The notes under the pieces: model-generated
The model's input: the letters and a program-made list of their open reading frames with translations, nothing else
Told to the model about the DNA's origin: nothing
Databases searched by the model: none
Assembly: GCF_000243155.2 (NCBI RefSeq)
Contig: NC_018017.1
Span: 3,100,001 to 3,164,000 of the forward strand
Source of the DNA: Desulfitobacterium dehalogenans ATCC 51507
GTDB taxonomy: Bacteria; Bacillota; Desulfitobacteriia; Desulfitobacteriales; Desulfitobacteriaceae
Reading direction: 5' to 3'
Length of the DNA: 64,000 nucleotides
Part shown: positions 33,918-64,000 of the stretch, piece after piece
Layout of the letters: each line of letters begins with the position of its first letter
How positions within the stretch are numbered: position 1 is the stretch's first letter
Translations under genes and position numbers: made by a program

Positions 33918-33978
33918 ATGCTCCCCAATGTAGTCCGGTTAGTAAAAACCACTACAGATGGAGGAGCATATTTCTTTT
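33918..33978 (+). terminator. Long-loop terminator after the coiled-coil gene
   Basis: ATGCTCC pairs with GGAGCAT, with an inner GTAGT/ACTAC stem, followed by ATTTCTTTT. The same structure is duplicated at 30,358-30,418. Confidence 0.7.
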
Positions 33979-34080
33979 CCACCCGGGGCTGCCTCCCCCT
34001 CCATAGACAAAAATTTGCAAGCGATTCTGGAAGGAAAATATAGGTATTTGTCGAATTCTTCCTTCTATGGGAGGGATTTG

Positions 34081-35161
34081 ATGTTTGCTTCTGTTCATGG
34101 CATGGCCGTATCTGGAATTCAGGCTCATTTAATTCGGGTGGAAGTGGATGTCTCCAACGGCTTGCCTGATTTTGCTATCGTCGGGCTTCCCAACATTGCC
34201 GTACGGGAATCTCGGGAACGTGTTCGCTCAGCCATCAAAAATTCGGGGTTTAATTTCCCTTTGCAGCGTATTACGGTTAATTTAGCCCCTGCCGATATAA
34301 AAAAGGATGGATCAGGGTTGGATTTACCTATTGCCGTCGGTATACTGGCCGCTACAGGACAATGTCCTCTGGAAAAACTCACCGGGATGGTATTCGTCGG
34401 AGAGCTTTCTTTAGAAGGACAACTACGGCCGGTATCCGGAGTTCTTGCAATGGCCGTTTCCTTAGCCCAACTCTCCTCCTACGCCTTGATTGTTCCTCAT
34501 GAGAACTTCCTCGAGGCCAATCTTATTGAAGAAATCAAAAGCGGCTCAGCAGAAAACCTTGTTCAATTGGTGAGTGCACTCCATACCGAGGAGCTCTTTT
34601 CTTCCCCCTTCACAGCATCGTTTCCTTTAACCGATTCTTCCCCCATTGAGCAGCCTTCTGAGGAAACCCTGGATTTATGCTCCATCCGAGGTCAGCAGCA
34701 AGCGAAAAGAGCTTTGGAAATTGCCGCTGCCGGGGGACATAATATCCTGCTTATGGGTTCCCCCGGCTCAGGCAAAACCATGCTCGCCAAAGCCTATGCG
34801 GGAATCCTCCCTTCTTTGACGCGAACTGAGAGCCTTGAAGTTACTAAAATCTACAGCATCGCCGGTTTATTGGGCCATAACGGGCAGCTTATTCAATCAA
34901 GACCCTTTCGCCAGCCCCACCATTCGGCAACTGCAGCAGGGATTCTCGGTGGCGGCCGTGACCTTAAACCCGGCGAACTCATTCTGGCTAATCATGGCGT
35001 ACTCTTCCTGGATGAATTGCCGGAGTTTTCCCGGGAAGTCCTCGAATCTCTGCGTCAACCTTTAGAGGACCGGGAATTGACCTTGACCCGGCAGCGGGGC
35101 AGTGTCAAATACCCTGCCCGGCTAAGTATTGTCGCCAGCATGAATCCCTGTCCGTGTAGTT
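34081..35161 (+). pseudogene. comM: comM (YifB) magnesium-chelatase-like ATPase, 5' part, interrupted
   Basis: ComM is a AAA+ helicase that aids branch migration in natural transformation. About 360 residues are intact: [14 protein letters not shown], the N-terminal S5-like domain, Walker [16 protein letters not shown], Walker [12 protein letters not shown], and up to SMNPCPC. The normal protein continues with a GYYGD-type zinc/loop region and about 140 more residues. Here the frame runs at about 35,157 into unrelated sequence. The 3' part is nowhere in the window, so an element has inserted at this codon. GGGAGGG precedes the ATG at 34,081. Confidence 0.92.
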
Positions 35162-51096: not shown

Positions 51097-52932
51097 TTAC
51101 CTTCCACCAGCTGTACCCATGTAATCAAATTTATATTCAGGAATTTCCTCGTTAAAATTTGCCTTCATCCTTTTTGACCCTATCATCAGAAGCGCCTGGC
51201 CGCGCTGCTTGCTGGCCAGCAGCTCCTCTTCGGCATCAGTAAGGCCGTATAAATCCTTCGTATCTTTCAAGTTCGGCCCATCCGTCCCCATAAGAATCTT
51301 GAAGCACGGCGTATCGAGAATCGCTTGACCATACATTTTCACTTTTGGATCGAGAAAATCTACAACACTATGCGAAGCAACTACAACCGCCGCCTCGTAC
51401 TTTCGGGCCCTCTTCTCTTGATTTCGCACGACCACCAATGATTGGGGAACATTCGGGTCAACGATTAAATACCCTTCATCGTAAATTACCATAACCGGCT
51501 GCGTTCTATCTTCGCTCATTTTTTCCCACGCCCAATTGAGGATGTTAAAATATTGGGTCCGCTTGATACGCTCACTGGAGTTTTGTAAGTTATAAGTATC
51601 GAGGCAAACACATTGATTGTCGGATTGAATCGTGGTGTGTCCATTCCAGAGGAAGGAATCGCTGCCCATTGCAATATCTTTTAAGAGCAGAGCCAATTTG
51701 GCATAAGGATTTTGTTCCAAGTCCTTCTTTATCGCTTTCCCTTTTTTATCAATAAGTTCATACAGATCTTTCATAACTGGAAAATCCGTATTGCTTAGAA
51801 GATCTATATCCGTGTCCCAAAAGATATTGAACGCATTGTATAACTCAATTAGACAATCCTTCAGGATAGCTTTCTGGATATCGGTCAAAGAGGGACTATA
51901 AAGACCGAAAAAGATCTCCAAATTTTGCATATACAAAGCCATGTCTCCCATACCATGACCTTCATCTTTATATAGCTTCTCCACTTCGTCGTTTTCGTCT
52001 CTTGCTACCGGCCGTATTTGCAGTGGATTAATTCTCCCCCCTGCTCCACCACCAGCATCGATCCAATCTCCATTCAGCCTTAAACAAAGATCTTTATATT
52101 CTCTCTCAGGATCTACAAAGATAATTTTTGTCCCTCGCATGTACTCACAAAGAGCAAGATGCTTGATGATCGTAGATTTCCCCACTCCAGGGACCCCCAT
52201 GATCACCACATTAGAATTCGTCCTGTCCCCTCCGCGCAACCAGGGATCAATGATAATAAGCCCTCCCGCCGCATCTTTGGCGAAGTAATAGCCTCTCCCA
52301 TCGTTATAACCAGACGAAGCAAAAGGAAACCCACCCACAAAACTTGAAAGGGGCACCGGACGCTGAGTGATGTTTTCCACCTTACTATCTGTCGTATAGA
52401 AAGGAGAAATCATCTTGAAGCCTTCTTTTTGTAGATCAGCTAATGTTCGCACCTTGCATTTAAGCCCTTTGATTGTACTTTCTACCTTCCGACAAACCTT
52501 AGTAAACATAGCGTCGTCTCGAGCAATAGGCATAACCACAACACTCATTAACCCAACAGATTCTTCATTCTGATCAATCTGAGCCATGGTCTTTTCAGCA
52601 TTATCTGCAGTTCTTGTCGCTCTCTGCTTTGTTAGAGGATCGTTCGTTGTATCCGCTGTACCACGATTAAGTTTAATTGTATTTGACAGCGTGTCCACGA
52701 AGGCACCATTGTCTGTTGGCGTGAATGTAATTGATACAATAGTGCTTGGTATATTCGTTATTTTAGATAACCAACCATAGTCCGGATCTTGTGGATACTG
52801 AATAATCCCGTAAATCTTGCCTTTATTCTCACCTATCGTCAAGTTATTTCGAGTAAATCTGAGCCCTATCGGAGTGATAACATTGAGTAAGGCACTATTG
52901 ACCGGCATTTCTTCTGTCCTTTTTTTTGCCAT
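51097..52932 (-). CDS. VirB4/TraE-type T4SS ATPase
   Basis: A 611-residue motor ATPase. Walker A is GVPGVGKSTIIKHL (about 245-258), Walker B is VMVIYDEGYLIVD, with sensor VVVASHSVVDFLD. The region PFASSGYNDGRGYYFAKDAAGG before Walker A is typical of Firmicutes VirB4. Central power unit of the mating channel. Confidence 0.93.
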   Translation of the reverse strand: MAKKRTEEMPVNSALLNVITPIGLRFTRNNLTIGENKGKIYGIIQYPQDPDYGWLSKITNIPSTIVSITFTPTDNGAFVDTLSNTIKLNRGTADTTNDPLTKQRATRTADNAEKTMAQIDQNEESVGLMSVVVMPIARDDAMFTKVCRKVESTIKGLKCKVRTLADLQKEGFKMISPFYTTDSKVENITQRPVPLSSFVGGFPFASSGYNDGRGYYFAKDAAGGLIIIDPWLRGGDRTNSNVVIMGVPGVGKSTIIKHLALCEYMRGTKIIFVDPEREYKDLCLRLNGDWIDAGGGAGGRINPLQIRPVARDENDEVEKLYKDEGHGMGDMALYMQNLEIFFGLYSPSLTDIQKAILKDCLIELYNAFNIFWDTDIDLLSNTDFPVMKDLYELIDKKGKAIKKDLEQNPYAKLALLLKDIAMGSDSFLWNGHTTIQSDNQCVCLDTYNLQNSSERIKRTQYFNILNWAWEKMSEDRTQPVMVIYDEGYLIVDPNVPQSLVVVRNQEKRARKYEAAVVVASHSVVDFLDPKVKMYGQAILDTPCFKILMGTDGPNLKDTKDLYGLTDAEEELLASKQRGQALLMIGSKRMKANFNEEIPEYKFDYMGTAGGR

Positions 52933-54257: not shown

Positions 54258-55079
54258 TTATCTCTTGAAAATTCGTACTAACTGTGTAGCATAAAAAGCC
54301 TTGCCCATCACATTTCCCCCCGGCCCCGCGGGAATAATGAACTCTTGTAAAAATCTTGGTGTACCTAGAGCCATCTGGATAGCTACTATAGCCCATATGA
54401 GATGCCCTTTCATGAATAGAGCCAAACTGAGCTTAAGAAAAACTATCTGGAGCATCACCGTAATCATAGCTTGAAAGAATTTCTGCATGTATGTTTTGAA
54501 CACGCCTTGGTCGGAATCGACTAATCCCACACAGGCTATAGGAACACCTAGTCTCAGCGTTAATATTTCTAACCCTATTTTCAAGAACTTGATATAAAAA
54601 TAAAGGAGGCTGCCTAAGTAAAACAGACCAAAAATAGCTGTCAGAAGCCCTGCCGACATAATGGATTCCACTACCAGTTTGAAATCGACAAGAAGACCCC
54701 GAGTTAAGGCGGCTAAAAGCTTATCTGTCAGACCTTGTACAATCGTAGCCATCCAGTGATACAATGTTGGAAAAGAAATCGCTACCACTAACGCTTTAAG
54801 AAAATAGGTAAGAAATACAATCGGATCAGTATCTGCGTCACCATCAATCCATAAAATATACGTGTTAAATCCCTTTTGCACAAACTTCAGAATGATGAGA
54901 GATATCCCAAACATGAATAGAATTTCATAGATTTCCGACAGCAAATTGAAACCTAGGATTTCATTTAAAGCATTTTCTGCATAGAAAGCGATTGGTACTA
55001 GATTCATTAGTAATAAATCCATATAATTTAAAAGGCCTGTTAATAAAGCCTCAATCAAAACCATTAAAAGATCAACCAA
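54258..55079 (-). CDS. TrbL/VirB6-like polytopic protein
   Basis: A 273-residue protein with about six helices and a conserved loop GVPIACVGLVDSDQGVFKTY, matching the TrbL/VirB6 family of Firmicutes conjugation systems. It would form the inner-membrane part of the channel. Confidence 0.85.
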   Translation of the reverse strand: MVDLLMVLIEALLTGLLNYMDLLLMNLVPIAFYAENALNEILGFNLLSEIYEILFMFGISLIILKFVQKGFNTYILWIDGDADTDPIVFLTYFLKALVVAISFPTLYHWMATIVQGLTDKLLAALTRGLLVDFKLVVESIMSAGLLTAIFGLFYLGSLLYFYIKFLKIGLEILTLRLGVPIACVGLVDSDQGVFKTYMQKFFQAMITVMLQIVFLKLSLALFMKGHLIWAIVAIQMALGTPRFLQEFIIPAGPGGNVMGKAFYATQLVRIFKR

Positions 55080-55513: not shown

Positions 55514-57037
55514 TCATTTCTCATTGAGAAATTCTTTCATTTCTTGTGCAACAGAAGGAGCACATAAATATTGGTATTGCTTCCAAATGCCCCAAAGTTC
55601 AATGTCATTCATTTTCGTAATACGCTGTGGCCTTAGATTTTCACGCCTTTCTCTTAATAACCTGTTATGCTCTTTGTCCCCCATGCCAAACATTTTATTG
55701 AAAATAGTCTGTGATATGTCCGGAGCAAACATAATGGCCGGATAGCCACGGGATGTAACCAAACTGTACGGACGATTTATCCGCCTAACTTCGTCCGGAG
55801 TCAATAGAGGTCGGCTCATCAAACTCATACTTTCCGATGTAGAGGGAGATGAGTAACGCCCACTAGAAGAACTGATTGAGTACGAAGATACCGTGTACGG
55901 TCCAAGTTTTTCTGATATTTCTTTAAGGGTTTCAGGATTATCTGCCTGAAGATAGATCCATTTTTCGCAGTTGTCCCGTAGAATTTTTGCGACTTCTTTG
56001 CCATATTTCTCGTCAAGCTGAGCAAAAGATTGTACAAACAAAGAATACCGGATTCCACGTCCCCCACCGGCTGTAAGTGAACTATCTAAAGCCGGCATTT
56101 TGACGAAGTTCCCGAATTCTTCAAGAATAAAGTTGACCCGCCTTTCCAGCCTCCCTCCTCTTGCATCCGCAGTCCTTACCAATTCCTCATAGATTTGTGA
56201 AGCCATCAAACTAGCCAAGGAATAATAGGTTTTCTTTTCATCCGGAAGGATGATAAATACTGCGGTTTTTTTACGCCCTATTTCGGCCGGATCAAAATCC
56301 TGTCCAGAGGTCAAAGAATAAATCATAGGGTTAGTAAAAAGTTTAAGTGTCGCCAAAGCAGCCGTATAGAAACTTCCACGAGTTCTTGTAGGAGCTACTT
56401 CAGAAATTGCTAACAACCCTTTTGAAGGATGATTATCCGGCAATCTCTTAACATACTCAACGATTGGCATCTTGCTGTTGATTGTTTTACACATTTCAGC
56501 GATAAAATAATAGACATTCGTCATGTTTCGGTATTTATGCCGTTCCGGATCGCGGTTGTCATAGACTACCGCCATAATTGCGCTAGCAATCGTTGAGGCT
56601 TCCCCATCATTCCAGATGCGCTCTCCTTTCGCTTCACCAACAAGATTGGCTGTCATATCCCATGTTGCATCAATCGCTGCAGCAAGATCATCATTATCTA
56701 CCCCATCACAAATCCTCTTCAAAAAACTATAATGATGACTCTTAAGAGGATTCTTAAAGTCTACCGCATAAACTTCATACCCCAGACTTCGTAAATACGG
56801 AGCTGTATAGCTATAGAGTTCACCTTTGGGATCACTTAAGATCATACTTTCACCGGATAGCCCTATAAACCCAATAGATATCAAGATAACTGTGCGTGAT
56901 TTGCCTGATCTCGTAGCACCAATACAGAGAGTGTGGATATCTTCTTTAACATAAGTGATAGACAGTGTGTTTCCCTTCCTCTGTACACTGAGGACAATTC
57001 CACCTTCGGAAATATTAAGTGCTAAAGCTGTGCTCAA
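55514..57037 (-). CDS. VirD4/TraG coupling protein, ATPase part
   Basis: A 507-residue cytoplasmic motor that feeds DNA into the channel. Walker A is IGATRSGKSRTVI (near residue 39), followed by MILSDPKGELY; Walker B is NFILEEFGNF, and the sensor is SLFVQSFAQLDEKYG. It lacks the N-terminal membrane helices normally fused to this family; these are coded by the preceding gene (ATGA overlap). Confidence 0.93.
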   Translation of the reverse strand: MSTALALNISEGGIVLSVQRKGNTLSITYVKEDIHTLCIGATRSGKSRTVILISIGFIGLSGESMILSDPKGELYSYTAPYLRSLGYEVYAVDFKNPLKSHHYSFLKRICDGVDNDDLAAAIDATWDMTANLVGEAKGERIWNDGEASTIASAIMAVVYDNRDPERHKYRNMTNVYYFIAEMCKTINSKMPIVEYVKRLPDNHPSKGLLAISEVAPTRTRGSFYTAALATLKLFTNPMIYSLTSGQDFDPAEIGRKKTAVFIILPDEKKTYYSLASLMASQIYEELVRTADARGGRLERRVNFILEEFGNFVKMPALDSSLTAGGGRGIRYSLFVQSFAQLDEKYGKEVAKILRDNCEKWIYLQADNPETLKEISEKLGPYTVSSYSISSSSGRYSSPSTSESMSLMSRPLLTPDEVRRINRPYSLVTSRGYPAIMFAPDISQTIFNKMFGMGDKEHNRLLRERRENLRPQRITKMNDIELWGIWKQYQYLCAPSVAQEMKEFLNEK

Positions 57038-58197: not shown

Positions 58198-58857
58198 TTA
58201 TTTAGGGCTTGTCATATCCCCTTCCTGTGAAATCGGATCATCCCCTGAAGGAGTTTTTATTTCGGGCTCAATAACAGGCAAACTTAAAGCATTACTTAGG
58301 CTTTCAATAATCTTGTTTTGTTCAGTTATTATGTGAGTACCCTCATTGTCTGTAAAAACAAAAGACGGGCTTTGCTGAACAAATTCTGTTGGAGGTCCGA
58401 CTTGAACGGTCATAGGCAGGGATATATTATTTTCCTGCTGGAATCCTTTAGCCATTTCTTTTGCCTCATTTTGGTCTGTAGTTTTAGCAAATGTACTAAC
58501 CAATACCAAAGGTTTATGAGGAGTGCTTCCCATCTGATTTATCACATTTTGTATTTCTATAATTACTTGAGCTGAGGACTCATCCCAAGTCGCAAAGAAA
58601 AGAGCTGGTATCGCTTCCGTGTCGATATAAACTCTTGCTGCTTTATCTGCTGCGGCATCCAAAACAGGTACTAGACGATAATTTGCATCAGCAATAACAC
58701 CTTGCGCCGGTACATCTTTTAAGTTGAACTCCTGCTGTGAACCTTCTTTTCCTTTGCCTTGAACGAGCGTCATAGCAGCTAAAGCTATAACGAAGACTAC
58801 AAGCACTCCGAGAATAACGAGTTTACCTTGCCGAGTTAAATTAAACTTTTTTTCCAT
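58198..58857 (-). CDS. Membrane-anchored thioredoxin-like protein without cysteines
   Basis: A 219-residue protein with one N-terminal helix (LVILGVLVVFVIALAAMTLV) and an extracytoplasmic domain shaped like TlpA/thioredoxins: ALFFATWDESSAQVIIEIQN replaces the usual FFATWCPPC. Both catalytic cysteines are absent (D and S at those places), so it cannot do redox chemistry. It may be a structural or peptide-binding subunit, in a VirB8-like position. Confidence 0.6.
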   Translation of the reverse strand: MEKKFNLTRQGKLVILGVLVVFVIALAAMTLVQGKGKEGSQQEFNLKDVPAQGVIADANYRLVPVLDAAADKAARVYIDTEAIPALFFATWDESSAQVIIEIQNVINQMGSTPHKPLVLVSTFAKTTDQNEAKEMAKGFQQENNISLPMTVQVGPPTEFVQQSPSFVFTDNEGTHIITEQNKIIESLSNALSLPVIEPEIKTPSGDDPISQEGDMTSPK

Positions 58858-58871
58858 GATTATTAACCTCC

Positions 58872-59846
58872 TTAATTATTACCTACGGGATTATAAATTG
58901 GTGGATTGTATGTTCCAGATGTCCCTGGTCCTGTACTAGGTGGCTGAATAGGAATTGTATTTGAATCCGGATTAGGTTGTCTTTGTGGCGGGGATTGAAT
59001 GTTTTCCGGGTTCATGGTTGAAGGATCTAAATCAGTTTGCTCAGTATTCGTATTTGGTGGAGTTTGTATTACCTGATTTGCCTGAGGTTCGACCACAGCA
59101 GGAGGGACCATTGTGTTTGGAGGGCTTTGTATACTGCCTAAATGTGTTTTCGGTGTTGCAAACGGATCAAACATAAGGGATACTTTGCCGGTAGCAAGCT
59201 GACTAAATGCTCCCGCGCTTTCCTCAGGGATTGCCAGTTGAACCGCAACAGGCACACTAGCATTAACGCTGCCACTTGTGTTATTGAGATTCGGTTGTAT
59301 GGGCTGCCCCGCATTGTTAATTACCGAAACAACTCTAACCCCTTTGAGTGAGTTAACCATTTCAGATTGGATTACCTGCCCCCAATTAGATCCATTTCTA
59401 TCCGGGGTCAAATAGACACTTACGATATCGCCTGGTTTAACAAGACCAGATGTCGTTAGGGAAACCGGGACCCATACGCCAACTTCGCCGGGATAGAGGC
59501 CGTTTCGCATAGGTGTCTCTGCAACAAGCCCTTTAACAATTGGCTGTCCAGCTTTAACTGGATATGATAGTGATTGTCCTACCACCTCATCCTTTGAAAC
59601 GATAACATCTGCTGGAAGTATTCCGGACACTTTTCCATCATCTTTAAGATCTGCTGCGGTGATTACTTTTCCTGGTTCAAGATCGTTGGCCGCAACAACC
59701 ATACTTGTGACGTCTCCCATGGCTAAACGTCCTCCGAACGTTGCCAGGGCAAAGGTGCTTATACCGACTAACAGAGATAGAGTTAAAGCTCTTGACCTAG
59801 CTTTGCGTGTAGAAGAGATTCGAGGGAGTGAAAATGGAAGTTTCAT
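58872..59846 (-). CDS. SAF-domain (CpaB/RcpC-like) pilus-assembly protein
   Basis: A 324-residue protein with one N-terminal helix (LTLSLLVGISTFALATFGGR), a SAF domain (VVAANDLEPGKVITAADLKD), an RcpC-like beta domain (PGDIVSVYLTPDRN), and a long Pro/Asn/Gln-rich tail. CpaB/RcpC proteins belong to Flp-type pili. Start at 59,846 behind GAAAGGTGA. First gene of the transfer operon. Confidence 0.8.
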   Translation of the reverse strand: MKLPFSLPRISSTRKARSRALTLSLLVGISTFALATFGGRLAMGDVTSMVVAANDLEPGKVITAADLKDDGKVSGILPADVIVSKDEVVGQSLSYPVKAGQPIVKGLVAETPMRNGLYPGEVGVWVPVSLTTSGLVKPGDIVSVYLTPDRNGSNWGQVIQSEMVNSLKGVRVVSVINNAGQPIQPNLNNTSGSVNASVPVAVQLAIPEESAGAFSQLATGKVSLMFDPFATPKTHLGSIQSPPNTMVPPAVVEPQANQVIQTPPNTNTEQTDLDPSTMNPENIQSPPQRQPNPDSNTIPIQPPSTGPGTSGTYNPPIYNPVGNN

Positions 59847-59984
59847 AAATGAGTCACCTTTCTTTCCTTTCTTTGTTCTAAATTCATAAATTAAGAGGAC
59901 AAACAAATTCTTATCAAAGAATCGCCTGTCCTCTTAAAAACACAGCAGTTTATTGCTTATGTATACCTTGGAAGTTTTATGTGA

Positions 59985-60914
59985 TCATATTTCTTCATCT
60001 CCTTTATTTTGTCCAGCGCGCTTTTGCCTCCAGCGCGCCATTTTTCGTACGGCCTTTGCTAGTTCATATTGATTGGACATTACATATCGAGCTGTTGTGG
60101 CTATATTTGGCATACCATTCTTCTTCAGGTGACCAGCAACTATGGCCACATCAGTGATTTTCATGCCACTGTTTAATAAATCAGCACAATATGTATGTCT
60201 CAAAGTATGATAGGTAAAATAAAATCCTAATTTGTCTCTGAGGTTTTCGACCATCTTTTGCACGGCACGAGTAGACATTTTATGATCAGTATTTTGAGCC
60301 AAAAAAACATATCCATCTTTGTCCGTTCTACCGTGAAGGTATTCCTGCAAGAGCTCCACCAAATCAGGAGCCATCGGAACAGTTCTATATTTAAACCCTT
60401 TTCCTACTCTTACACGAATCTCACCACCTCTCTTTTTTAGCTTTAAATCTGAAATCCTTAAGTTAGTAACTTCTGATACACGTAATCCGGCACCAAGTCC
60501 AATTTCAATCAACACACGTTTTTTAAGGCTTTCAGACTTCATCGCATCTCTAAGCACATCCACATAGTCTTCAGGTAAACTTTTGGGTGCCAACAAAGGT
60601 TCTTCAATGTACTGAACCCGTAACGCTGTATTGGTTTTGATAGCGCCTTCTTCCACCCCCCACCTAGAGTAAATTCTAATCACCTGAAGAGCTTTATTTA
60701 TCGTGGCAGGTTCTTTTTTTGAAATGATTGCCAAGTACGTTCGATAATCGCGAATAAGTCCTGCTGTAATGGTTTCGGGTCCGGTAAAATCAATTTCCCT
60801 TTCTTCTTCCACCCATTTGATAAATTGCTTAATTGTTCGTAAGTATGCAAGTATCGTTTTTACGTCATAACCTTGCCTTTCATCCATCCATCTCTCAAAT
60901 GTGTCTAGATCCAT
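59985..60914 (-). CDS. Tyrosine recombinase next to the cassette array
   Basis: A 309-residue integrase. SAM-like N-terminal domain, then the catalytic domain with GAGLRVSEVTNLRISDL (Arg), YHTLRHTYCADLL (H-x-x-R), AIVAGHLKK (His) and the nucleophile in TTARYVMSN. ATG at 60,914, nine bases behind AGAGGG. It could be the ICE integrase, the cassette recombinase, or both. Its nearest DNA neighbour is the first 23-bp cassette site, about 105 bp from the start codon. Confidence 0.9.
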   Translation of the reverse strand: MDLDTFERWMDERQGYDVKTILAYLRTIKQFIKWVEEEREIDFTGPETITAGLIRDYRTYLAIISKKEPATINKALQVIRIYSRWGVEEGAIKTNTALRVQYIEEPLLAPKSLPEDYVDVLRDAMKSESLKKRVLIEIGLGAGLRVSEVTNLRISDLKLKKRGGEIRVRVGKGFKYRTVPMAPDLVELLQEYLHGRTDKDGYVFLAQNTDHKMSTRAVQKMVENLRDKLGFYFTYHTLRHTYCADLLNSGMKITDVAIVAGHLKKNGMPNIATTARYVMSNQYELAKAVRKMARWRQKRAGQNKGDEEI

Positions 60915-61018
60915 TCTGCTTTTCCCTCTTTCTTCAAATCGTGTCCTTTCAGGCAATAAGCATATTTAACCACAAATTATCCTGTTTTGGACCTGAATTG
61001 AGAAAAGAGATCTTATTC

Positions 61019-61041
61019 CGATTCGTACGCGAACCCTATTT
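61019..61041. repeat. Cassette recombination site, copy 1
   Basis: A 23-bp sequence with core GATTCGTACGCGAACCC. TTCG and CGAA form inverted arms around TACG. It is identical in all three copies. It lies in an open reading frame that reads DSYANPI. Confidence 0.8.
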
Positions 61042-62303
61042 TGGGTGCTACGATTACCGTCTCTGGAGGCTTTGGAGCATCAGTAAGTGGGGCCACAAAT
61101 GAGAACGGTTACTTCAATTTTGAGGTAACTCCAACCATCGTAGGCGGACCATACACGCTCCATTATTCTGTAACCAGCTCCTCAGGGACTTACACCGTTA
61201 GCCAAAATACACTGACTGTTACCCTTGTTCCAGTACAACATGTCCTGGAAGGTGTAACGATCTTGGGTAAAACCGGAACCATGCCTAATATGGCAATTCG
61301 TAATCCAAATGGTGTAGGAACCGGGAGAAGCCAAGCATTGGAGTATTGGACCGGCGGAGGCTCCACGGTCTTTCTCAAACCGCAGAAAGGGTTCTATGAT
61401 GGAGATGACACATGGACTTACTATAATGATTCGAACTTAAACTCCGGTAATATTAGAGCAGGGACAAGCATCTTTGGAGTAAATGGTAACCCTAATGTTG
61501 TTAACACATCCGGGGGAAATCTAGTGCCGGGAGGCATATTATCAGGCTATAAAGGGTATTCAAATGGATCTCTAGTTACAGGCACTATTCCTTCGAAGAG
61601 TGCAGCGACGATTACTCCATCGAGCGTTAATCAAACAATAACGGCAGGTCAATATCTTTCTGGAACACAGACGATACAGGGAGATCCAGATTTAATTTCG
61701 AGCAATATTCGAGCAGGGGTTAACATCTTTGGAGTTAATGGAGATACAAATGTCGTTAATACATCTACAGGAAATTTAGTGCCGGGAGCTATGCTATCCG
61801 GTTATAAAGGATTTTCAAATGGATATCTAGTTACAGGCACAATTCCTTCAAAGAGTGCAGCAACGATTACCCCATCAACAGTTAACCAAACGATAGCTTC
61901 AGGTCAATATCTTTCTGGAACACAAACAATACTGGGAGATCCGAACTTGATCCCGTCAAACATAATAAGTGGGAAGAGCATATTTGGGGTTGTGGGGACA
62001 GCAAAAACTAACACTGGGGTGAAGTATGCAAGTGGTAGTAAAATGTCAGAATTGGATAATGGCTATCAGCGATTAAATATTTCCGGCCTAAGTTTCCGAC
62101 CATCTTTTGTGTTAGTACAAGTTAATAACTATGGATATCTATTGGGCATGTCCAACTATACTATATATCATGGTCCATATAACACAGGTTACTCTAATAC
62201 TGGAGTATCAACGGGTTATTCTGCGACATCAGACGGCTTTTCCATCATAGTTAGTCCTGGGATATCTTCACCTCAAACTTGTAGTTGGCGAGCTTGGGAG
62301 TAA
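61019..62303 (+). CDS. Cassette 1: start-less tail-fibre/adhesin C-terminal ORF
   Basis: From the site to the stop there are about 428 open codons in frame, with a TGA just upstream (about 61,000) and no ATG/ribosome site. The N-terminal 160 residues (Ig-like ITVSGGFGASVSG, then GGSTVFLKPQKGFYDG) are shared with cassettes 2 and 3. Then two repeats of about 87 residues (LSGYKGYSNG, TIPSKSAATITPS, LSGTQTI, IFGVNG) resemble Firmicutes phage tail-fibre domains. The C-terminal domain ends SPQTCSWRAWE. It can be expressed only if joined to a head gene. Confidence 0.8.
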
Positions 62304-62326
62304 TTTTATTCATTAAATTTCAGATT

Positions 62327-62360
62327 AAGAAAATGGGGGAATCTTCCCCATTTTCTTTAC
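62327..62360 (+). terminator. Terminator at the end of cassette 1
   Basis: GAAAATGGGG pairs with CCCCATTTTC, followed by TTTACC. Each module thus carries its own 3' end. Confidence 0.7.
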
Positions 62361-62366
62361 CTATTT

Positions 62367-62389
62367 CGATTCGTACGCGAACCCTATTT
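62367..62389. repeat. Cassette recombination site, copy 2
   Basis: Identical to copy 1 over 23 bp (core GATTCGTACGCGAACCC), direct orientation, 1,348 bp downstream. Open in frame from 62,329. Confidence 0.8.
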
Positions 62390-63432
62390 CAGGGGCTAAT
62401 TTGACCGTCTCTGGAGGGTTTGGAGTTAGCGTATCGAGAACCACAAATACCAATGGATACTTCAATTTTGGGATTACTCCTAGTGTTATTGGGGGGCCGT
62501 ATACGCTCCATTATTCAGTAACCAGTTCCTCCGGGAATTACGCTGTTAGTCATAATACCTTAACTGTTACGGCTCCCCTTGTTATACCTACAGATAAGAT
62601 TCTCGAAGGCGTTTCAATAGCAGGTCAAATCGGCACAATGCCAAATATGGCCACAGCTAATCCCAATGGCATAGGAGTAGGCCGAAGCCTTGCTAAGGAA
62701 TACTGGACAGGCGGTGGGTCTACGGTTTTTCTAAAGCCACAAAGGGGCTATTTTGATGGAGCCGATACATGGACATACGTCAATGCCCCCAATCTATTAC
62801 CGTCAAATATAAAACAAGGAGTTAATTTATTTGGTGTAACGGGTACCTACTTGGGAACCGTACCTACACATGGATCAAAAGAATGGACTACTCCAGGAAC
62901 CTATTCATTTACCGTCCCTGAAGGCGTGAATTCGATTTTTGCGCTAATTCAAGCAGGTGGTGGTGGCGGTGGTGGTAATACCCCCGGTCAGGTCGGAGGA
63001 GGAGGCGGCGGTGGTGGTGGTTATGGTGTTTTTTCAATACCTGTAACGCCAGGCCAGATTTTACCTATTGTTGTAGGATCAGGGGGATTAGGCGGCACTA
63101 TAAATTATTATGATGGTAGTAAATGGACTGGTGCCACAGCAGGACAAGACGGGGGAAACTCATCAGTGGGTTCCTACAGCTGCACGGGTGGTAAAGGGGG
63201 ATCTCCTGGCGGTAGTTATCCATACGGAGGTCTTGGTGGTATCGGAAATTCTTATGGTAGGAACGGCACACCAGGGACACAAGGCGAATATTATTCGCCA
63301 TCTAATGGGTTAGGCGGTGCTGGTGGAATGAATAATTATGGAACCGGAGGAATGGGATCTGGTACATATTCGACAAAGGAAAATGGTGACGGTAATGATG
63401 GCAGCTGCGGAAGAGTTGTGGTGTTTTGGTGA
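62367..63432 (+). CDS. Cassette 2: start-less ORF with glycine-rich adhesin tip
   Basis: About 355 open codons from the site; an upstream in-frame TAA lies at 62,326. The shared Ig-like region (LTVSGGFGVSVSRTT; YWTGGGSTVFLKPQ) is followed by a different C-terminus: KEWTTPGTYSFTVPEGVNSI and a glycine-rich lattice (GGGGGGGYGVFSIPV) ending CGRVVVFW. This is the style of phage tail-fibre tips and glycine-rich adhesins. No start codon or ribosome site. Confidence 0.8.
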
Positions 63433-63506
63433 AGTAGTTTTGGCTCAATCCCATCCTTGAATGGGGTGTTAAATGACCAAAAATAACGACAATGCGTTAC
63501 CCATTT

Positions 63507-63529
63507 CGATTCGTACGCGAACCCTATTT
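63507..63529. repeat. Cassette recombination site, copy 3
   Basis: Identical 23 bp, direct orientation, 1,140 bp after copy 2. Confidence 0.8.
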
Positions 63530-64000
63530 TAGGGGCTGCAATTACGGTTTCTGGGGGCTTCGGAGCCAACCATTCAGGGATTACCAATGCCAATGGCTAC
63601 TTTAATTTTTTGATTACTCCAACCGTTATTGGAGGGCCCTATACACTTCAGTATTCGGTAAATAGCCCCCAAGGAAACTACTCTACAAACCAAAATTCCT
63701 TAATCGTTACAGCCCCACTTATTATCCCAGTCGATAAGATCCTGCAGGGCGTTACTATAGCCGGTCGAGTCGGGACCATGCCCAACATGGCAACATCTAA
63801 TCCAAATGGCATAGGAGTAGGCCGAAGCCAGGCGAAAGAATACTGGACAGGTGGAGGCTCTACGCTCTTTCTAAAGCCGCAAAGGGGCTATTTTGATGGC
63901 GTTGACACCTGGACTTATTGGAATGAGCCTAATCTGTTACCATCAAATATTAAAAGTGGTACAAGTATCTTTGGAGTCGAGGGAAATATGCCTCCTGGAA
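63507..64000 (+). CDS. Cassette 3: start-less ORF, cut by window edge
   Basis: Open from the site to the window end (164 codons): DSYANPILGAAITVSGGFG, NYSTNQNSLIVTAP, KILQGVTIAGRVGTMPNMAT and YWTGGGSTLFLKPQRGYFDG. The variable tip has just begun (IFGVEGNMPPG). The array continues beyond the window. Confidence 0.75.

Follow-up and report, generated by a model that had tools for sequence, protein, structure and literature searches.

A probable shufflon-type inversion system beside the Tad-like pilus operon of an integrated element in Desulfitobacterium dehalogenans

To our knowledge, shufflons acting on conjugative pili are found only on Gram-negative plasmids and islands. The closest described system is the PilV/Rci shufflon of IncI plasmids such as R64 and TP114 (PMC9045228), where a conjugative element carries a pilus operon that ends in the gene for the tip protein. 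According to three papers, the C-terminal variants of PilV set the recipients in liquid mating (PMC8213034, PMC9045228, PMC3414803). In the Kil system of Myxococcus a Tad pilus is customised by variable tip domains, using four different minor-pilin complexes (PMC12075869). Here we analysed Desulfitobacterium dehalogenans ATCC 51507 (G000; a single contig of 4,321,753 bp), beginning with a stretch of 64,000 nucleotides, the window (G000:C1:3100001-3164000). Unless another frame is named, positions are window-equivalent, that is, the genome coordinate minus 3100000, also to the right of the window end at 64000. We consider it highly probable, from the sequence, that this region holds a shufflon-type multiple inversion system on an integrative and conjugative element (ICE) of the Bacillota. 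It comprises a constant head gene with a pilin-like start, seven alternative 3′ parts (tails c1 to c7), repeated sites in both orientations and a tyrosine recombinase gene.

Like R64, the locus has seven sites, four in one orientation and three in the other, and in both systems inverted and direct sites bound the alternative 3′ parts. The site is exactly CGATTCGTAYGCGAACCCYATTT, 23 bp of contiguous alignment columns that are invariant save two C/T positions. A search with its 17-bp core (up to two mismatches) found seven copies in the genome, four on the + strand and three on the - strand, while the reversed-pattern control gave 0. All seven cluster within 8 kb and none lies elsewhere in the 4.32 Mb. 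Inside the window a 25-mer (up to three mismatches) matched three times, always on the + strand, against 0 in 100 shuffles. An earlier reading made from the window's letters (the sequence-only reading) had taken the site to be 23 bp long, which stands. Its direct orientation of the sites is right for the window and not beyond, as a fourth direct copy lies just right of the edge and three inverted copies follow.

Sites 1, 2 and 3 (61019-61041, 62367-62389 and 63507-63529; all +) have a TAC spacer and head tails c1, c2 and c3. The fourth site, at the start of c4 (64389, or L008 4489-4505; +), has a TAT spacer, as does the c5 site with its core at 67188-67204 (L008 7288-7304; -). The cores of the c6 and c7 sites are at 68069-68085 (-), heading tail c6, and at 68950-68966 (-), in frame inside the head gene. 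TAC is the spacer at the five sites other than those of c4 and c5, which form an inverted pair flanking the middle of the array. If spacers must match, this TAT pair is a possible sub-switch. The left flanks before GATTCG also fall into classes: TTACC at the head copy, TATTCC at the recombinase-side copy and ATTTC at the other five. Each of these flanks is the end of the preceding tail's trailer. In the related genome G008 the flanks are alike, with TTACC at the head and TATTCC on the recombinase side, yet its second + copy is also of the head type. Such a pattern would be expected if left halves stay put while right halves move.

The sequence-only reading had allowed that inversion might work through a head gene to the right, encoded on the other strand, and such a gene is there. 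It is a surface-protein gene of the Tad operon and lies on the - strand to the right of the array with its ATG at about 71048, and its product, beginning MMRLKNLIRRLAYQLKRENGVSNYVSFIIVLPVLL, has a membrane-anchored, pilin-like start followed by immunoglobulin (Ig)-like repeats (Big_1, 56.3 bits; cut-off 34.9). At the site the protein reads DSYANP and then runs on in frame into tail c7. A CarboxypepD_reg domain spans this join, with profile positions 2-56 on residues 690-746 of the fusion and the site at residue 696; in tails c3, c4 and c5 the same domain is matched from profile position 11, below the cut-off. Since the site is near the beginning of a CarboxypepD_reg-type domain, the head and the tail each hold part of it.

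In all seven tails the head's frame stays open from the site, and each of the other two meets a stop within 55 codons. The six sites besides the head's copy each head a 3′ tail that is start-less, by which we mean without its own start at the join and imply nothing about promoters; the frame of each free tail passes through the site from the preceding stop. Counted from GAT to the stop, the tails on the + strand are c1 (61020-62303; 1284 nt, 427 aa from the site), c2 (62368-63432; 1065 nt, 354 aa), c3 (63508-64000 and on to 64338; 831 nt, 276 aa) and c4 (64389-65498; 1110 nt). Those on the - strand are c5 (65603-67204; 1602 nt), c6 (67255-68085; 831 nt) and c7 (68136-68966; 831 nt), the last being fused in frame to the head gene. 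The first 150-160 or so residues are common to the tails, which then diverge, for a total of 276-533 aa from the site. Repeats and a distinct C-terminal tip make up c1. The glycine-rich ends of c2 and c4 match PF21722 (29.0 and 31.4 bits; cut-off 24.3), and one tip is common to c3, c6 and c7 (three of seven slots). No Pfam tip domain was found in c1 or c5. Tail c2 also matches PHROG 863, a tail fiber assembly family (2.5e-13), and a stretch similar to it occurs in 23 phage contigs, mostly starting near c2 residue 169. These resemblances fit a receptor-binding role for the tips and are no proof of it.

At the left end of the array lies the tyrosine recombinase gene that the sequence-only reading had named (59985-60956, -; 323 aa; PF00589, 100.1 bits), which we propose codes for the shufflon invertase. 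Measured from its TTG start the first core is 63 bp away; from its first ATG it is 105 bp, the distance given in that reading. The placement matches R64, where rci follows pilV in the same order of rci, seven sfx sites and pilV, and where the recombinase gene lies beside the array on the strand of the head gene. The reading frame is intact, and R159, H250, R253, H276 and Y291, which we take to be residues of the catalytic type, are invariant in a three-row alignment. The best profile matches are the tyrosine recombinases XerC (135.9 bits), XerA (131.5) and XerD (108.8), yet all are far under the curated cut-offs of 335, 220 and 330, and the best PDB match is 4a8e. Compared with Rci of R64 the protein is 23% identical over 224 aligned positions (31.6 bits), and 27% (77 bits) with an XerD-like protein of its own genome (13205-14101). 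Rci has 384 aa, and the recombinase described here is too short to hold a C-terminal extension of the Rci type. Such an extra domain is present in the Rci homologues that were tried out in synthetic biology (PMC11852207). By sequence the recombinase is XerC/D-like and not Rci-like. The gene is dedicated to the array, which it flanks, and its product is predicted to be active. AlphaFold models were of poor quality and were left unused (predicted local distance difference test 62 for the recombinase and 49.7 for the c2 tail).

In the proposed mechanism the recombinase would invert DNA between oppositely oriented sites, joining one tail at a time to the head, which would display it, probably at the pilus tip. 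When the array is modelled as a series of sites and tails, 1440 arrangements can be reached by inverting between opposite sites, and every tail comes to the head, c1 to c4 in one step and c5 and c6 in two. Donors in one population would then differ in the tip they carry. More tentatively, and by analogy with PilV of IncI plasmids, the tips may choose or stabilise mating partners.

Alternatively, recombination between direct sites could release tails as circles that are then inserted again after the head, the integron-like option of the sequence-only reading. Four consecutive direct copies would suit such a route, as would c6 and c7, which are a tandem, site-bounded duplication. It is nonetheless very improbable and we have abandoned it: three of the seven sites are inverted, the head is on the other strand, the tails are not whole genes, and two integron integrase models score the recombinase at 78.1 and 34.8 bits against cut-offs of 265 and 435.

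The array is part of a larger element inserted in comM. The N-terminal part of comM (33958-35157, +; end approximate) is cut at MNPCPC, about position 35140, and the two breaks are 78.1 kb apart. At the right junction (L019 11713-13806; genome 3211.6-3213.7 kb, end 3213706) a 697-aa large serine recombinase (Resolvase, Recombinase and zinc-ribbon domains) and the C-terminal part of comM form one fused frame. The integrated element thus carries a recombinase-ComM fusion frame at its right end. Between the comM halves lie genes for a VirD4-type coupling protein (55514-57037, -; NF045973, 301 bits, cut-off 250), a TrbL-like conjugation protein (54258-55079, -; PF19597), a VirB4-like ATPase (51097-52932, -) and a MobA/VirD2-type relaxase. 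The relaxase (L018 7453-10587) has a long C-terminal run of Sel1 repeats. With a relaxase, a coupling protein, VirB4, an integrase and a split target gene, the 78-kb element is an ICE, and its transfer is predicted from these genes.

The presence of the tyrosine recombinase on this ICE might suggest that it is the ICE integrase and acts at comM, the outcome that would have undone the sequence-only reading. We give this practically no credence. The gene is the sole PF00589 match between the comM halves, among 10 in the genome, and the comM junction is held by the large serine recombinase, which leaves the tyrosine recombinase free for another job. In G008, moreover, its relative is at a Tad locus with no match to the VirD4, TrbL or VirB4 of G000 in the 69 kb around it (1e-5).

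The Tad-like operon, the type IV secretion system, the relaxase and the serine integrase are all on the one 78-kb element, with the head gene at the end of the operon. Upstream of the head, on the same strand, are tadC, tadB, cpaF, two tadZ genes, a TadE-like gene, a gene for a large secreted protein and then a prepilin peptidase gene (PF01478 match at genome position 3181495). The labels from tadC to the large secreted protein were assigned from gene order plus partial profile support. The TadA/CpaF-type ATPase matches T2SSE (63.7 bits; cut-off 24.9). The TadB and TadC candidates were placed by gene order, one scoring 19.6 with T2SSF (cut-off 25.2) and the other having no match. Beyond the recombinase lies a CpaB/RcpC-like Tad protein (58872-59906, -), which matches SAF (32.8 bits; cut-off 21) and falls slightly below the cut-off with RcpC (27.2 against 28.8); it adjoins the recombinase in G008 and G011 too. 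Scores with the NCBIfam TadA and CpaB models are under their cut-offs. The conserved neighbour of cpaB (58198-58857, -) has no Pfam match, and copies 42-49% identical to it are beside cpaB in G008 and G027. A scan of the G000 stretches for the Flp major pilin motif found none. A small hydrophobic open reading frame (MDNWATLIIIVVVVIGIG...) between cpaF and tadZ (L008 14411-14690, -) is a candidate major pilin, and a similar one occupies the same place in G021.

Constant 5′ part, alternative 3′ parts, sites in both orientations, in-frame tails and an adjacent recombinase gene are found together here, beside Tad-like and type IV secretion genes. The locus very likely works like a shufflon, as the sequence-only reading had suggested for this ICE. 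It is not a member of the Rci/PilV family.

We then surveyed how common the parts are. The recombinase is present in 2 of 398 sampled genomes of the phylum (1e-60), 3 of 73 of the order (1e-45) and 3 of 45 of the family (1e-40). In genome_contigs one sequence retrieved 0 loci and an alignment retrieved 1, from Desulfosporosinus sp. SbF1 (G011), a relative from the same family. The best recombinase relatives in the plasmid collection are just 34-35% identical, and viral_contigs gave 0 matches each for the site pattern, the recombinase and the N-terminal part of the head. That part (701 aa) was found at seven loci in 6 of 45 family genomes (1e-10), and its first 169 positions in 6 of 82 genomes of the class (1e-8), all from the source's own family. 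The site (up to one mismatch) has 14 copies in 4 of the 45 family genomes, with a control of 0.

Similar to G000, G008 encodes the recombinase (74% identical) at a Tad locus with the same operon, three sites (two + and one -) and three tails. In G008b, its second Tad locus, there is a head and one tail with an intact site, and the recombinase is not adjacent. G021 likewise has one tail and an intact site with cpaB directly beyond and no recombinase. G018 has a head plus one tail with an inverted site pair; its contig ends 137 bp past the second site, so whether it has the recombinase cannot be judged. A recombinase-like match in G018 (34%) was not counted: its frame has 183 residues and precedes the pilus genes on their upstream side. 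G027 has a single tail and no adjacent recombinase; the protein position is kept (DAYGNP) and the site is lost. A weak head-like match in G002 (33%) has no site within one mismatch. Full tail arrays (G000, G008) go with the recombinase; an intact site alone does not. G011 has a divergent recombinase, 45% identical, beside cpaB (L014 1662-2585), and its genome holds no copy of this site.

The site is also constrained beyond the protein it encodes. We compared five heads (G000, G008, G021, G018 and G008b), excluding G027, in which the site is gone, and G002, which was unaligned. For the site residues D, S, Y, A and N, 46 of 50 pairs use identical codons, against 1586 of 4195 pairs elsewhere (38%); because the five heads are related, this measures an unusual constraint and not independent events. 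Four of the five site residues use one codon in all heads, compared with 12 of 178 other fully conserved residues, and when five conserved residues were drawn 20000 times, the observed codon identity was reached 0 times. The codons of the site are constrained far beyond the protein.

The array has traces of past movement. Tails c6 and c7 are a perfect tandem duplicate of a whole 881-bp unit (L008 7304-9066; the c3 unit is L008 3608-4488). Compared with c6/c7, c3 has 26 differences, all 22-95 nt past the site start, and in the stretch differing from c3 the two are exactly like c2 as far as nt 102. Tails c3, c6 and c7 end identically, yet what follows at the site is a different sequence each time (c4, c5 and c6). 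These patterns fit movement bounded by the sites, together with homologous exchange over the first 100 nt. The head tail of G008 and its tail t2 have 437 bp in common at 98.4%, starting 12 bp before the site (L012 14075-14511). Tail t2 includes 12 bp that are the left flank of the head itself. Between the t2 tip and that of the second Tad locus, 2.7 Mb away (G008:C3:1498247), identity is 92% over 564 bp. To judge by these matches tips do travel between loci, though not every join is at the site.

Several points weigh against an inversion system. The inversions themselves are predicted from the genome sequence of a single isolate. The TAC and TAT spacers differ, and if a match between them is required the model reaches 96 arrangements in which c4 and c5 never join the head. 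In G011 there is neither a site (up to one mismatch) nor a head gene (1e-10), on a contig of just 3.8 kb; the recombinase there possibly belongs to a related switch using another site, with the contig too short to tell. For D. dehalogenans ATCC 51507 the main text of a 2018 short-read screen reports an inversion elsewhere, beside an HD-domain gene (PMC5903667). Finally, c6/c7 is a c2/c3 chimera with its join about 96-102 nt past the site start, off the site, which points to homologous exchange as well, and in G021 and G008b, where there is one tail and the recombinase is not adjacent, the site is still intact. A site can thus persist without an adjacent recombinase.

The last two points, with the t2 matches in G008, are what might be expected of silent cassettes. 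The tails would then serve as a reservoir, exchanged through homologous recombination or gene conversion; the sites would be stretches of conserved coding sequence, and the recombinase would be incidental or dead. We regard this as unlikely. Against it stand the codon constraint at the site and the presence of sites in either orientation from which the tails start. The recombinase has an intact frame with residues of the catalytic type, and the full tail arrays are those with the recombinase. The shufflon-type inversion system is the reading we prefer.

Compared with the IncI shufflon, this one is in the Bacillota and on a Tad-like and not a type IVb pilus. Its site is unrelated to sfx (GTGCCAATCCGGT...), and its tails are 276-533 aa from the site, of which the first 150-160 or so are common to them. 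The locus uses the same principle with different parts. Unlike the Myxococcus Kil system, one gene is involved, with the tip swapped by the proposed DNA inversion. Among the literature matches listed there was no Gram-positive Tad shufflon, which does not prove absence. Reportedly, a 2023 systematic survey of gene-altering inversions may list the array.

A fuller proposal, for and against which we find the arguments about evenly balanced, is that an Xer-like recombinase and a site that arose within an Ig-like domain of a Tad pilus protein were independently put together as a shufflon by a Gram-positive ICE, which uses it to vary the recipients gripped by its donors. The array may also consist of two sub-switches, divided by the C/T class of the spacer, in which case c4 and c5 would stay in reserve until the head acquires a T-type site. 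The recombinase and site offer a new pair, and the locus a testable hypothesis on ICE host choice. If the reading is true, a Gram-positive, Tad-based shufflon whose recombinase and site are unrelated to the known ones would have converged on the same solution, and would suggest that pili able to grip a partner are important when ICEs of the Bacillota transfer.

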